Shown piece after piece: positions 47,181-56,161 of a stretch of DNA of 64,000 bases; the stretch's first letter is position 1, and every line of letters starts with the position of its first letter. The stretch comes from Parazoarcus communis SWub3 = DSM 12120. Its GTDB lineage: Bacteria > Pseudomonadota > Gammaproteobacteria > Burkholderiales > Rhodocyclaceae. The notes beneath the pieces are model-generated. The model worked only from the letters and a program-made list of their open reading frames with translations, ran no database searches and was not told the origin of the DNA. The DNA lies in assembly GCF_003226565.1 (NCBI RefSeq), contig NZ_QKOE01000006.1, positions 124,001-188,000 on the forward strand. Reading direction: 5' to 3'. The position numbers were made by a program, and so were the translations under genes.

Positions 47181-47498
47181 TCAGTGGAAGAAGTCCTCCA
47201 GACGCTCGAAGACCTCGTGCTCTGCGCCATGACGACGGACATGGAGGACATCCTCCAGCTTCTCGAGCTGACGAATCATCTGCTCCAGCCGCTGATCTTC
47301 GAACACCAGCAACCAGATCCGGCTTCTGTCGCCGCTGCTCAGCGGCATGCACAGGATCCCTTCCATATTGAACGCACGGCGGGCAAAGAGATTGCAGATG
47401 TGACTCATCACACCGGGATGGTTATTCACATCGAGCTCCAGCACCACCTTGGCAAAGCTGGCCTGCTGCAGGGGTTCGGCAACCTGTTCGATCATCAT
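47181..47498 (-). CDS. ilvN: acetolactate synthase I small (regulatory) subunit
   Basis: A 105-residue regulatory subunit consisting of one ACT domain (VVLELDVNNHPGVMSHICNL, then LFARRAFNMEGILCMP). Its size and the segments RIWLLVFEDQRLEQMI and LEKLEDVLHVRR match E. coli IlvN (96 residues), not the about 160-residue IlvH common in betaproteobacteria. It should confer valine feedback. The ATG shares one base with the ilvB stop (TGATG), and GGAGG within the ilvB end is its ribosome site. The larger isoform III pair is not in this window. Confidence 0.94.
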   Translation of the reverse strand: MMIEQVAEPLQQASFAKVVLELDVNNHPGVMSHICNLFARRAFNMEGILCMPLSSGDRSRIWLLVFEDQRLEQMIRQLEKLEDVLHVRRHGAEHEVFERLEDFFH

Positions 47499-49165
47499 CA
47501 GCCTCCGATCATCTCGGTGTTGGCCGCACCCGGCGGCACCATGGGGTAGACAAACTGTTCACGGTCGATCGACGCGTGGATCAGACACGGCCCAGGCGTC
47601 TGCAAGGCCTGCGCCAGGGTCGCTTGCGGATTGGCCGCAGCATCGAGGTCGATCGCGGGAATGCCGAACCCTTCTGCAATACGCAGGAAGTCAGGCTCTC
47701 CCTTGTAGCGTGAAGCGAACACGCGCTTGCCATAGAACAGATTCTGCTGCTGGTACACCAGACCCAGCGCATTGTTGTTCATCAGCACGATCTTGACGTT
47801 AAGCTGCTGCTCGGCGAGCGTCGCCAACTCCTGGATATTCATCATGAAGCTGCCGTCACCGGAGAAGCACACCACGGTACGCTCCGGCGCTGCCATCGCC
47901 GCGCCCAACGCTGCCGGCATACCAAAGCCCATGGTCCCCAGGCCACCCGAAGTCAGCCACTGCCGCGGACGACGGAAGGGGTAGGCCTGCGCCACCCACA
48001 TCTGATGCTGACCGACATCGGTAGTGATGACCGCCTCGTCGTCCAGCGCTTCCGCCACTGCATGGATCAGACCATAGTGACTGCGCGGATTGTCCTGCTC
48101 GGGGAACTGCATTGGAAAAGCGGTGCGCAGCGCTGCCACGCGAGCCAGCCAGCCTTCGCGCAGCTGCACCTTGACCCGCGGCAACAAGGCATCAAGCACT
48201 TCCGCCACATCGCCATTGATCGCCACATGAGCATTCTTGATCTTGTGCAGTTCTGACGGATCAACGTCGACGTGCACGATCTTCGCGTTCGGACAGAACT
48301 GTGCCGCTTTGCCAATGGCGCGATCATCGAAGCGCGCACCAACGCAGATCAGCAGATCGGACTCTTCCAGCACGAAATTGGTATAGCGCGCGCCGTGCAT
48401 GCCCAGCATGCCGATCGACAAGGGGTGATCAACCGGCATCGAACCCAGCGCCATCAGCGTCATCGTGGTCGGCAAGCCCGCCTGCTCGGCCAGATTCACC
48501 GCCTGCTGTGCTGCACCGGAGTGGATCACGCCACCACCGAGATACAACACCGGACGCTCAGCCTCGTTGATCATCCTGGCCGCGGCTTCGATCTGCTCAA
48601 CCTGCACCACCGGCGAAGGGCTTCGCACTGCCACTGGCGGAAACTGCGCGAACTCGATGATCTGGTTCTGCACATCCTTGGGCACATCAACCAGCACCGG
48701 GCCAGGCCGGCCCGACATCGCGATCCGGAAGGCTTCTGGAATCACCTCGAGCAACTCCCGCGCGGAACGGACCAAAAAGTTGTGTTTGGTGATCGGCACC
48801 GTCATGCCGTAGATGTCGACTTCCTGAAAAGCATCGGTACCGATCATCGGCAGCGGCACCTGCCCGGTGATCGCCACCAACGGGATGGAATCGAGCATGG
48901 CGTCGGCAATCGCCGTCACCAGATTGGTTGCCCCCGGACCGCTGGAGGCAAAACACACCTCGGGCTTGCCGGACACACGCGCCATGCCCTGCGCCATGAA
49001 GCCCGCCCCCTGCTCGTGGCGTGCCAGTACGTGATGGATGATGTCACTGCCCGAAAGCGCGTCATACAAGGGCAGGATGGCACCACCGGGAATCCCGGCA
49101 ATGGTACGCACACCCTGGCGCTCGAGCAGGCGCACAATCAACTGGGCGCCGGTCATCTGATTCAT
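47498..49165 (-). CDS. ilvB: acetolactate synthase I large (catalytic) subunit
   Basis: A 555-residue ThDP/FAD enzyme for the first common step of Val/Ile/Leu synthesis. AGIPGGAILPLYDAL, LARHEQGAGFMAQGMARVSG (ThDP Glu), SGPGATNLVTAIADA, GARFDDRAIGK and the ThDP motif FSGDGSFMMNIQELATL are all present. Segments such as MIGTDAFQEVDIYGM and LGMLGMHGARYTN match recalled E. coli IlvB closely. Expression is predicted to be controlled by a valine-rich leader peptide and an attenuator upstream (49212-49357). Confidence 0.96.
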   Translation of the reverse strand: MNQMTGAQLIVRLLERQGVRTIAGIPGGAILPLYDALSGSDIIHHVLARHEQGAGFMAQGMARVSGKPEVCFASSGPGATNLVTAIADAMLDSIPLVAITGQVPLPMIGTDAFQEVDIYGMTVPITKHNFLVRSARELLEVIPEAFRIAMSGRPGPVLVDVPKDVQNQIIEFAQFPPVAVRSPSPVVQVEQIEAAARMINEAERPVLYLGGGVIHSGAAQQAVNLAEQAGLPTTMTLMALGSMPVDHPLSIGMLGMHGARYTNFVLEESDLLICVGARFDDRAIGKAAQFCPNAKIVHVDVDPSELHKIKNAHVAINGDVAEVLDALLPRVKVQLREGWLARVAALRTAFPMQFPEQDNPRSHYGLIHAVAEALDDEAVITTDVGQHQMWVAQAYPFRRPRQWLTSGGLGTMGFGMPAALGAAMAAPERTVVCFSGDGSFMMNIQELATLAEQQLNVKIVLMNNNALGLVYQQQNLFYGKRVFASRYKGEPDFLRIAEGFGIPAIDLDAAANPQATLAQALQTPGPCLIHASIDREQFVYPMVPPGAANTEMIGG

Positions 49166-49211
49166 CTGCTTCTCCTTTCAAGGACGTTTTGCGGCGTATC
49201 GACCGGCGGCA

Positions 49212-49253
49212 CAAAAAACAAACCCCCGCCGGCCTTGCGCGCCGGCGGGGGTT
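49212..49253 (-). terminator. attenuator terminator upstream of ilvB
   Basis: AACCCCCGCCGGC (49221-49233) and GCCGGCGGGGGTT (49241-49253) form a perfect 13-base stem with a 7-base loop. In the minus direction it is followed by TTTGTTTTTTGTG. It lies between the valine leader peptide stop and the ilvB start, the position of a transcription attenuator. Confidence 0.88.
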
Positions 49254-49282
49254 CTGGATTTGGTTCGTTCTGTCCTGACCCG

Positions 49283-49357
49283 CTACGACGCGCGCACGCC
49301 TACGCCTACTACTACGCGTACGACGATTACATCGAGGGACAGGAAACGACGAGTCAT
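49283..49357 (-). CDS. ivbL: valine-rich ilvB operon leader peptide (ivbL-like)
   Basis: A 24-codon frame read directly from the minus strand: MTRRFLSLDVIVVRVVVGVG then VRAS and TAG. It contains nine Val codons and one Ile codon within 12 residues, resembling the Val-rich core (VVVRVVVVVG) of E. coli IvbL. It is 30 bases upstream of an intrinsic terminator and 118 bases upstream of ilvB, with a promoter candidate 30-55 bases before its ATG. Stalling at Val codons when Val-tRNA is scarce would favour an antiterminator. The ribosome site is weak. Too short for ordinary gene finders. Confidence 0.85.
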   Translation of the reverse strand: MTRRFLSLDVIVVRVVVGVGVRAS

Positions 49358-49384
49358 GGTCGGGCCATAAAGTTTACAGGCGAC

Positions 49385-49413
49385 ATAAAATCACGAAACA
49401 GAGAACAACACAA
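49385..49413 (-). promoter_or_regulatory. candidate promoter of the ivbL-ilvBN operon
   Basis: On the minus strand TTGTGT (49413-49408), a 17-base spacer and TTTTAT (49390-49385) form a plausible sigma-70 promoter. Initiation would fall about 20 bases before the leader peptide ATG. The local AT-richness supports it; not otherwise proven. Confidence 0.5.
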
Positions 49414-49435
49414 GCATTTTCTCGCATGCTGCCCC

Positions 49436-51118
49436 TCATGCGCCGCCGTTCTGCTGATGCTCGTCCCTCAGCATGCGTCGCAGAATCTTGCCAACATTGG
49501 TCTTGGGCAGCTCGTCCCTGAACTCGATCAGGTGCGGCACCTTGTATCCGGTCAGGTTCTTCCGGCAGTGCGCGATCAGATCCGCCTCCGTCAGCGCCGG
49601 ATCCTTGCGCACCACAAACACCTTGACCGCCTCACCCGAGTGTTCACTGGGCACACCAATGGCCGCCACCTCCATCACACCCGGGTGACTGGCAACAACA
49701 TCCTCCACCTCGTTGGGATAGACATTGAATCCGGACACCAGGATCATGTCCTTCTTGCGATCGACGATGGTCACGAAACCGTCCTGATCCATGACTGCAA
49801 TGTCCCCGGTACGGAAGAATCCGTCCGGCGTGAACGCACGTGCGGTATCCTCCGGCCGATTCCAGTAACCCCGCGTCACCTGTGGCCCACGCACGCAGAG
49901 TTCCCCACGCTGACCGATGGGCTGTTCGACGTCATCGTCATCACGCAGGCTGACCTCGGTCGACGAAATCGGCAAGCCGATCGAGTGATTGAAGGCAGGC
50001 AGGTTGAGCGGGTTGATGGTGACTGCTGGAGAGGTCTCGGTCAGCCCGTACGCCTCGATCAAGGGCAAGCCGGTCACCTGCTTCCATTTCTCGGCCACTG
50101 CCTGCTGCACCGACATCCCGCCACCCAGCGAGATCCGCAAGGCAGAGAAATCCAGCCGCGCAAAATCCGGATTGTTCAGCAAGGCATTGAACAGCGTATT
50201 GACCCCGGTGATGGCGGTGAATCGATACTTGGCCAACTCCTTGACGAAGCCGGGAATATCGCGCGGATTGGTGATCAGCACATTGGTCGCACCGATCTTC
50301 AGGAAAGTCAGACAGTTCGCGGTCAGCGAGAAGATGTGATACAGCGGCAAGGCCGTGATGATCACCTCTTCCCCTTCATGCAGGAAAGGCTTGATCCAGG
50401 CATGCGCCTGCTGCAGGTTGGCAACGATGTTGCCGTGGCTCAGAATGGCGCCCTTGGCAACCCCGGTAGTCCCTCCGGTGTACTGCAGGAAGGCAATGTC
50501 ATCATGCCCCACAGCCACGCGCCTGAGCGCATGCCGCCCACCACTCGACAGCGCCCCGGAAAAGCGGATGCAGCCGGGCAAGGACCATGGCGGCACCCCT
50601 TTCTTGACCCTGCGGACAACAAAATCCACGATCAGCGATTTCGGGAAGCCCAGCATCTCGCCCACACTGGTGACGACGACGTGTCGCAAGGGCAGACGCT
50701 CGCGCACCTGCTGCAGCGTGTTCGCAAAGTTTTCCAGGATGACGATGACGTCAGCGCCGGCGTCGCGCAACTGATGCTCCAGTTCGCGCGCAGTGTAGAG
50801 CGGATTGACGTTGACGACGGTGTATCCGGCCCGCAAGGCCCCGAACATTGCAACCGGGTACTGCAACAGATTGGGCATCATCAGCGCCACCCGTGCACCC
50901 GGCTCAAGGCCCAGCTCGCCTTGCAGGAAGCCCGCAAACTGCGCCGACAGACGATCAAGCTCGGCGTAACTGATGCCTTTGCCCATACAGACAAAGGCCG
51001 TACGTGCCGCGAATTTCGAGACACTCTGCTCGAAAAGGTCGCCAAGCGAACCGAACTGATTCAGGTCGACCTCTGCCGGCACCCCCTCGGGGTACTGCTT
51101 GAGCCAGATCTTATCCAT
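49436..51118 (-). CDS. fadD: long-chain fatty acid-CoA ligase
   Basis: A 560-residue AMP-forming acyl-CoA synthetase. The AMP loop is [18 protein letters not shown] (near residues 210-227); [16 protein letters not shown], the [15 protein letters not shown] segment and [16 protein letters not shown], and the C-terminal [12 protein letters not shown] with the adenylating Lys, follow. Length matches E. coli FadD (561). The start [17 protein letters not shown] at 51118 is preceded by AGGAGGAGG. It feeds beta-oxidation; the fadD-CBS pair here has no other fatty-acid genes beside it. Confidence 0.95.
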
Positions 51119-55439: not shown

Positions 55440-55516
55440 TGGCGGAGTGGACGGGGCTCGAACCCGCGACCCCCGGCGTGACAGGCCGGTATTCTAACCA
55501 ACTGAACTACCACTCC
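55440..55516 (-). tRNA. tRNA-Asp(GTC), copy 1
   Basis: 77 bases with encoded CCA. The acceptor stem is GGAGTGG/CCACTCC, the anticodon loop CCTGTCACG gives GTC, and the T-loop is GGTTCGAGCC. It is last in the Ala-Glu-Asp order of the first module. Confidence 0.95.
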
Positions 55517-55585
55517 GCGCTGAACGGTTGCGACATTTTCGCTTGTCGCGGCAGACCGGCTTGCGCTGCGCCGATCTCGCCTTGT

Positions 55586-55661
55586 TGGCGTCCCCACGGG
55601 GATTCGAACCCCGGTTATCGCCGTGAAAGGGCGGTGTCCTAGGCCTCTAGACGATGGGGAC
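55586..55661 (-). tRNA. tRNA-Glu(TTC), copy 1
   Basis: 76 bases with encoded CCA. The acceptor is GTCCCCA/TGGGGAC, the anticodon loop CCTTTCACG gives TTC, and the T-loop is GGTTCGAATCC. Middle member of the first module. Confidence 0.95.
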
Positions 55662-55671
55662 CTGAACCTTT

Positions 55672-55747
<76 letters not shown>

Positions 55748-55761
55748 ACAACAAGCCGGCG

Positions 55762-55791
55762 ATTATAGCCTCTGTTTCAAGCTCACCGCAA
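55762..55791 (-). promoter_or_regulatory. promoter of tRNA module 1
   Basis: On the minus strand TTGCGG (55791-55786), an 18-base spacer and TATAAT (55767-55762) lie just before tRNA-Ala copy 1. Module 1 can thus be transcribed independently of module 2. A GGTTTCGAA/TTCGAAACC stem (55793-55817) lies just upstream. Confidence 0.6.
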
Positions 55792-55844
55792 TGGTTTCGA
55801 ACATTTTTTTCGAAACCTGCAGAGCCGAAGCCCTACGGTGTAAT

Positions 55845-55921
55845 TGGCGGAGTGGACGGGGCTCGAACCCGCGACCCCCGGCGTGACAGGCCGGTATTCT
55901 AACCAACTGAACTACCACTCC
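55845..55921 (-). tRNA. tRNA-Asp(GTC), copy 2
   Basis: Identical in the mature sequence to copy 1 by direct reading; 77 bases with CCA. Last member of the second module. Confidence 0.95.
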
Positions 55922-55983
55922 GCGCAAACCTGCCCGACATCTCTGCCGGTTTGCATGCCTGCATCCGCAGCCACGCTGAAATC

Positions 55984-56059
55984 TGGCGTCCCCACGGGGA
56001 TTCGAACCCCGGTTATCGCCGTGAAAGGGCGGTGTCCTAGGCCTCTAGACGATGGGGAC
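55984..56059 (-). tRNA. tRNA-Glu(TTC), copy 2
   Basis: 76 bases with CCA, identical to copy 1 by direct reading. The spacers on each side differ from those of module 1. Confidence 0.95.
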
Positions 56060-56085
56060 CTGGTACTACAAACAGCAACTTTCGG

Positions 56086-56161
<76 letters not shown>

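Follow-up and report, generated by a model that had tools for sequence, protein, structure and literature searches.

A predicted valine leader peptide and attenuator upstream of ilvBN in Parazoarcus communis and its relation to the ivbL system of Enterobacteriaceae

Introduction

The closest described system is the ivbL-ilvBN attenuator of E. coli and other Enterobacteriaceae (NF007579, PF08049), in which a leader peptide with a run of valines, a central arginine and a glycine after it precedes the AHAS I operon. The ilvL-ilvGMEDA and leuL attenuators likewise combine a leader peptide and a terminator with control by charged branched-chain tRNA, but they serve other enzymes and have other leader codons than the system described here. 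T-boxes sense tRNA charging as well; they bind the tRNA directly and have no leader peptide. The leu leaders use the rare codon CUA, according to the available part of the paper by Elf and Ehrenberg (PMC1183508), just as the leader described below uses a rare codon. In Corynebacterium, ilvB expression is likewise leader-controlled by a uORF attenuator, as given in the available parts of two reports (PMC10272879, PMC11857589), but in a different phylum and in a different operon, ilvBNC.

Here we analysed a stretch of 64,000 nucleotides from P. communis SWub3 (the window). A first-pass annotation had proposed an ivbL-like valine leader and attenuator before ilvBN, and the comparative evidence, all of it drawn from sequence, supports this proposal. 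We consider it very probable that AHAS I expression at this locus is set by valine supply through ribosome-mediated transcription attenuation, and that the system is homologous to E. coli ivbL-ilvBN. Among the literature matches listed, there was no paper on an ilvBN leader in Rhodocyclaceae; an earlier mention of betaproteobacterial candidates is possible, and a survey of proteobacterial attenuators is said to have appeared in 2004 in FEMS Microbiol Lett. The kind of attenuator is already known, and what is new is its Rhodocyclaceae member, the codon choice and the place in the tree.

The ilvBN leader region in the window

The features of the locus, in the direction of transcription, are:

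49385..49413, minus strand: candidate promoter chosen by eye, with -35 TTGTGT (49413-49408), 17 nt, and extended -10 TGA-TTTTAT (49390-49385)
49283..49357, minus strand: leader peptide gene (ivbL-like), 24 codons, MTRRFLSLDVIVVRVVVGVGVRAS followed by the stop
49301..49320, minus strand: predicted hairpin in the valine run, UACGC (49320-49316) with GCGUA (49305-49301), of near-invariant bases
49279..49293, minus strand: predicted antiterminator 5' strand, the last leader codons and the stop (GCGCGUCG ua GCGGG), pairing with 49249-49237
49237..49249, minus strand: predicted antiterminator 3' strand, CCCGCCGGCGCGC, part of the terminator 5' arm and loop, near-identical in E. coli (locus L032)
49220..49254, minus strand: intrinsic terminator stem-loop with 14 pairs (11 G-C) and a loop of 7, then the T-tract GTTTTTT
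47498..49165, minus strand: ilvB, AHAS I large subunit, the regulated gene (NF006016, 1046.6 bits, cut-off 870)
47181..47498, minus strand: ilvN, AHAS I small subunit, the second gene (NF006036, 169.5 bits, cut-off 128; ACT_AHAS_ss domain)

Both ilvB and ilvN, which overlap by one base, exceeded the equivalog cut-offs of AHAS I (the E. coli IlvB/IlvN type). The leader stop is 117 bases from ilvB, with the terminator in between, and the upstream neighbour is a long-chain acyl-CoA ligase (fadD-like) gene on the same strand. A second AHAS large subunit gene (L002) on the same contig encodes a protein 45% identical to the window IlvB, and no valine-rich leader was found upstream of it.

The whole leader contains eight valines and one isoleucine, and its densest 12-residue stretch holds nine valine and isoleucine residues, eight of them valine. 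The control codons are GTA (six), GTC (one), GTG (one) and ATC (one). Nine valines and one isoleucine had originally been counted in the leader core; the valine-rich frame and the isoleucine stand, and the valine count was one too high. Compared to E. coli IvbL, the leader has 24 rather than 32 residues, ends in R-A-S rather than N-A-P, and has GTA control codons where E. coli ivbL has GTG and GTC. The two systems share the valine run with its central arginine and following glycine, the terminator core CCCCGCCGGCGC and the AHAS I operon, and the antiterminator falls in the same place, with the last codons and stop set against the terminator arm. Judged by place, pairing and terminator sequence, the window system is homologous to ivbL attenuation. 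The peptide scored 11.2 bits against the IvbL profile NF007579 (cut-off 60) and had no Pfam match, and the leader of another Rhodocyclaceae locus, L018, was also below both IvbL cut-offs (20.1 bits, cut-off 60, and 17.2 bits, cut-off 25), with E. coli IvbL as a control at 78.7 and 72.6 bits. Since the window peptide falls below the cut-offs, profile-based annotation would miss this leader. A search of 49100-49500 with Rfam gave no family at its gathering score, with Leu_leader at 17.1 bits against 50.

A promoter had also been suggested before the leader. A strict consensus scan of the region found no promoter, but when the alignment was inspected by eye, a block resembling cTTG and TGnTTAnAnT stood upstream of the leader in 13 of 16 rows, the window included; three of the 16 rows (L007, L105 and L117) were cut at another ATG. 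The candidate is kept on the similarity of this block. At L005 and L006, a 14-pair hairpin about 230-265 bases before ilvB overlapped what is presumed to be the -35 of the leader promoter, and is perhaps the terminator of the upstream gene sharing bases with the promoter.

Distribution of the leader

An ilvB of the AHAS I type was found in 126 of 249 Rhodocyclaceae genomes (E <= 1e-200; 127 places), and the upstream DNA was read for 125 of these places, the other two genes being partial. The best short frame had at least six valines in 12 residues at 111 of the 125 places and at least five at 117, and the same search on dinucleotide shuffles reached at least six in 1 of 1000 and at least five in 22 of 1000; on the reverse strands, at least six were reached in 0 of 125. 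At 11 places the best frame had only four to five valines, and the remaining three (L194, L202 and L204) had no valine-rich frame, with two valines in 12 residues at best. A terminator was detected by at least one of two scans at 118 of the 125 places and by neither at seven, and a motif search found the terminator core at 111. The comparison across related ilvB loci that had been put forward as a check thereby favoured the leader. The intact copy in this window had further been called notable; its presence was confirmed, but rather than a lone outlier of an enterobacterial device it is a usual feature of the sampled Rhodocyclaceae that bear AHAS I. Upstream of AHAS genes of other types, a valine-rich frame was present in 8 of 62 loci, and four of the eight (L050, L055, L060 and L082) we take to be the known IlvL leader.

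Some loci deviated from the common arrangement. The leaderless AHAS-I-type genes L202 and L204 (genomes G162 and G167) lie closely behind the end of another coding frame, rhodanese-like by eye, and G167 has an additional AHAS I copy with a leader (L191). In L153-L156 (g64), leucine stands beside valine in the control run (by eye, e.g. LAVLLLVRVGVG in L153) and the terminator core differs, with a leader end that matches it in L154 and L156; these leaders are possibly tuned to leucine too.

Outside Rhodocyclaceae, AHAS I was scarce. At E <= 1e-190 it was present in 9 of 399 genomes of an order sample, eight of them Rhodocyclaceae, and in 10 of 369 genomes of a class sample, including the window's own genome. 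All ten AHAS I loci outside Rhodocyclaceae in the two samples had a valine-rich leader, as did loci from Desulfovibrionaceae and Myxococcales (L037 and L048). In Fusibacter paucivorans (Bacillota), a T-box (L035, 1679-1903, plus strand) precedes a related, AHAS-I-like ilvB in place of the valine leader, which is the same control logic as in the proteobacterial leader with a different sensor. Neither a valine-rich leader nor a T-box was found upstream of L039. Short valine-rich frames followed by terminator-like hairpins (by eye) were also seen before AHAS genes in a Fibrobacteres MAG (L061, MNNLRLVTLVVSVVVVVDHSLPLG) and a Treponema MAG (L042, MNTKLLVTVVTVLVVKVFR), and are possible leader-peptide attenuators outside Pseudomonadota.

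Terminator, antiterminator and other pairings

The terminator was the only one found in 48900-49700 by a simple scan, which on the window alone is not above chance (one found, 0.7 expected in shuffles). The leader and terminator together folded at -71.6 kcal/mol, with a z of -5.4 compared to 200 shuffles; this fold and the 14-pair stem bear out the terminator with a U-tract that had been reported between leader and ilvB. A scan for bulge-free terminators found none in 24 of 151 loci, and the motif search matched 15 of these 24, whose arm, similar to CCCCGCCGGTG...CCGAGCGGGGG, contains a bulge. An RNAalifold consensus of 58 leaders recovered the terminator and the hairpin in the valine run with little covariation. 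The antiterminator was absent from this consensus, as is expected where folds are alternative.

The pairs of the valine-run hairpin were kept in 56-58 of the 58 rows, without covariation. In 42 leaders chosen by peptide pattern, codons -1, 0 and +4 were GTA, CGC and GTA in 41, and the codon three after the conserved arginine codon was nGC (AGC, GGC or CGC) in 34; we take the invariance of codons -1 and 0 from this peptide-selected set, and in the pattern-selected set it holds by construction. The hairpin would explain the conserved arginine codon and the nGC codon three codons on.

When the terminator 3' arm was removed from the window RNA, starting at the ATG, the predicted fold paired 49293-49279 with 49249-49237, although this RNA folded no more stably than its shuffles (z -0.60). 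The pairing of TGCGCGC with GCGCGCA pointed out in the first-pass annotation forms part of this predicted antiterminator, between the leader end and the terminator 5' arm and loop. With upstream sequence included, the antiterminator was the best fold in six of nine loci, and in the remaining three, the window (L001) among them, a competing fold between the early leader and the sequence after the stop won. A ribosome on the leader would disrupt that competing fold. A mutually exclusive antiterminator that uses the terminator arm is accordingly a prediction for the window and for six of the nine loci.

Whether the two strands have evolved as partners could be read from a few lineages only. In a test with 96 leaders, native and swapped partners paired equally well, with both strands nearly invariant. 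Of the 103 loci that have the common arm, 96 had a native leader end that paired better with it than its own shuffles did on average. Among 24 loci with a variant arm, leader ends from common-arm loci equalled the native pairing in 0-2% of trials in five: L038, L154 and L156 (arm CCCCCTCCGGAG; one lineage by arm), L181 (arm CCCCTCCGGC) and L206 (another arm). The leader ends of L181 and L206, however, paired equally well with common arms and with their native arms. In eight of the 24 (L123, L125, L127, L144, L174, L197, L268 and L271) there was no native advantage, the native end being equalled by half or more of the common leader ends. The variant-arm test supports the antiterminator in the former five and not in the latter eight. 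The leader end thus appears to have changed together with the terminator arm in a few lineages, on which the support from covariation rests.

A protector pairing of the early leader with the sequence after the stop, CTGTCC (49342-49337) with GGACAG (49275-49270), had been suggested as well. It is present in the window and strong in energy, yet native partners were hardly better than species-swapped ones (mean z -0.20 in 56 leaders), and its conservation was unsupported; the candidate was rejected.

These pairings suggest the following course of events. With enough charged tRNA-Val, the ribosome would reach the stop codon and cover 49293-49279, the terminator would form and transcription would end near 49213. 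Under a shortage of Val-tRNA, the ribosome would stall on GTA codons 8-37 bases upstream of 49293-49279, the antiterminator would form and RNA polymerase would enter ilvBN. The hairpin in the valine run may serve as a pause hairpin, keeping ribosome and polymerase in step; this is a guess, and the least certain step.

Two simpler readings of the locus were weighed against attenuation. The hairpin could be only an intrinsic terminator, for example that of the fadD-like gene, next to a valine-rich frame that arose by chance, with the ilvB promoter further downstream. A terminator would be expected at this place, as 78 bases separate the leader from the end of the acyl-CoA ligase gene at 49436, and the chance-level result of the simple scan points the same way; but a chance frame is hard to reconcile with a rate of 111 in 125 loci compared to 1 in 1000 shuffles, with a codon bias specific to valine, with the joint changes of leader end and terminator arm in some lineages, or with leaders in families far from Rhodocyclaceae, and we regard this reading as extremely improbable. 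It is also very improbable that the leader acts mainly by being translated, through translational coupling or as a bioactive peptide, and not through early termination. Residues other than valine are indeed conserved, namely the R and G of the valine run and, in many leaders, an A-S or A-P that precedes the stop, but they sit where the valine-run hairpin and the antiterminator need their bases, and the leader stop is separated from ilvB by 117 bases and the terminator.

Control codons and tRNA-Val genes

In the 111 Rhodocyclaceae leaders, 62% of the valine codons were GTA (590/953), followed by GTC (25%), GTT (8%) and GTG (5%), compared to 2% GTA (39/1937) and 62% GTG in 43 Rhodocyclaceae ilvB genes. 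For seven other four-fold amino acids in the same leaders, the third base was A in 3-12%; by these counts, the GTA preference is confined to valine. The valine codons of enterobacterial leaders were GTG and GTC.

The window's genome has tRNA-Val genes with the anticodons UAC (one), CAC (two) and GAC (one) among 52 tRNA matches. We searched 31 genomes for tRNA-Val(CAC) with one query gene, and the anticodons were assigned with ARAGORN. The gene was present in 15 of the 20 genomes of the first set and in 4 of 11 further genomes (Azospira, Accumulibacter, a Desulfovibrionaceae and a Myxococcales), and this search did not find it in the other five of the first set or in seven enterobacterial genomes. 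A pattern search for the CAC anticodon arm matched 18 of the 19 CAC genomes, missing G101 with its unusual D arm, and among the 12 others matched only G1006, at a place where ARAGORN reported no tRNA. The pattern for tRNA-Val(UAC) matched nine of the 12 CAC-less genomes; in G950, G1002 and G1005, the pattern search found neither tRNA-Val(CAC) nor tRNA-Val(UAC), which makes the CAC absence there uninformative.

Leader GTA exceeded GTG in 18 of the 19 genomes with tRNA-Val(CAC) (14/15 and 4/4; the exception, G828, was a tie) and in 0 of the 12 where it was not found (0/5 and 0/7, or 0/9 minus the uninformative three), both counts being uncorrected for relatedness. Summed over the first 20 genomes, GTA:GTG was 77:12 with CAC and 3:24 without. 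One genome, G873, had the CAC tRNA and more GTA than GTG, whereas its four nearest relatives in the tree had no CAC tRNA that we could find and more GTG than GTA. At least two codon switches look independent in the trees: that of the enterobacteria within Rhodocyclaceae, and G873 beside its CAC-less relatives.

With tRNA-Val(CAC) present, GTG would have two readers and GTA one, tRNA-Val(UAC), so that GTA would slow first; with CAC absent, GTG would be read by UAC only, by wobble, and would be the codon used. The leader control codon would in this way be tuned to the tRNA set of the host. According to Elf and Ehrenberg, attenuator codons follow the charging sensitivity of isoacceptors; the available part of their text contains no occurrence of GUA, GUG or valine (PMC1183508). 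The switch between GTA and GTG with tRNA gene content may serve as a natural comparative test of that theory for valine (PMC1183508, as far as its available text goes).

IlvB trees and the enterobacterial operon

A 2017 survey by Liu et al. described beta-proteobacteria as having a single AHAS, with AHAS I arising inside the gamma-proteobacteria and occurring only there, save for Desulfovibrio and one firmicute (PMC5727371, available part of the text). In our 77-row IlvB tree, eight Enterobacteriaceae rows were sister to Rhodocyclaceae L018/L019 (97/91), inside clades with 100/97 and 100/99 support. In a second tree with denser sampling of g8, g12 and g14, the Enterobacteriaceae grouped with g12/g14 (94/68) and then g8 (99/96), within a clade of 37 rows (100/99) to which further Rhodocyclaceae do not belong. 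In AU tests on groups defined once the tree had been inspected, a constraint keeping the others as one group apart from the enterobacteria was rejected on the second tree (p 0.032) and borderline on the first (p 0.057); constraining all 51 Rhodocyclaceae rows to one group, which excludes L258 and L263 as well, gave p 0.015. The enterobacterial IlvB stem was long (0.53-0.55). The Rhodocyclaceae did not form one clade, as the IlvB of L289 (G134) grouped with a Desulfovibrionaceae sequence, and this is probably another transfer of the operon, as far as the tree tells. At the DNA level, the seven best local matches of the Mangrovibacter attenuator were all from g12/g14 (L203, L184, L018, L200, L199, L198 and L019), and the E. 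coli attenuator matched L186 of another genus best, with the next four from g12/g14.

The E. coli operon was probably acquired together with its attenuator, transfer into Enterobacteriaceae being a better explanation of these trees and matches than vertical descent, although it is not proven. A fuller account would be that the ilvBN attenuator of E. coli represents a branch of the Rhodocyclaceae system that crossed as one unit of operon and leader, and that its control codons then changed from GTA to GTG for want of a tRNA-Val(CAC) in the new host, so that the leader keeps the slowest-read valine codon, the one read by UAC only; in our judgement this stands about evenly between right and wrong.

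Each half of that account has a competitor. Vertical descent of ilvBN and its attenuator from an ancestor shared by Enterobacteriaceae and Rhodocyclaceae, accompanied by numerous losses, seems clearly unlikely to us. Such descent is made easier to hold by an AU result that was borderline in one of two tests directed at the enterobacteria, by groups that were named afterwards and by the long enterobacterial stem; it is made harder by the well-supported position of the enterobacterial IlvB with g8/g12/g14 inside a clade without further Rhodocyclaceae, by the lower p on the second tree, by attenuator DNA that is mostly most like g12/g14, and by the rarity of AHAS I elsewhere in the order sample. 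As for the codons, GTA might be favoured for structure and not for tRNA supply: in its place, GTG or GTC might pair wrongly with the C-rich terminator arm or disrupt the valine-run hairpin. Two GTA codons do lie within the stem of that hairpin, and the CAC-less genomes are a small group drawn wholly from the class sample or Enterobacteriaceae, but enterobacteria use GTG with the same arm, CCCCGCCGGCGC, GTA also predominates at the loop codons, which are not in the stem (37/42 and 26/42), and G873 differs from its four nearest relatives in codon and tRNA together. We find this structural reading somewhat unlikely. About half of the sampled Rhodocyclaceae have AHAS I, nearly always with a valine leader, and the enterobacterial copies are nested among them, so the account of where the textbook system arose may need revising.

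Elsewhere in the window, at 55440-56161 on the minus strand, two tandem copies of an Ala-Glu-Asp tRNA block (six genes) are present; their tRNAs are near-identical and their spacers differ.
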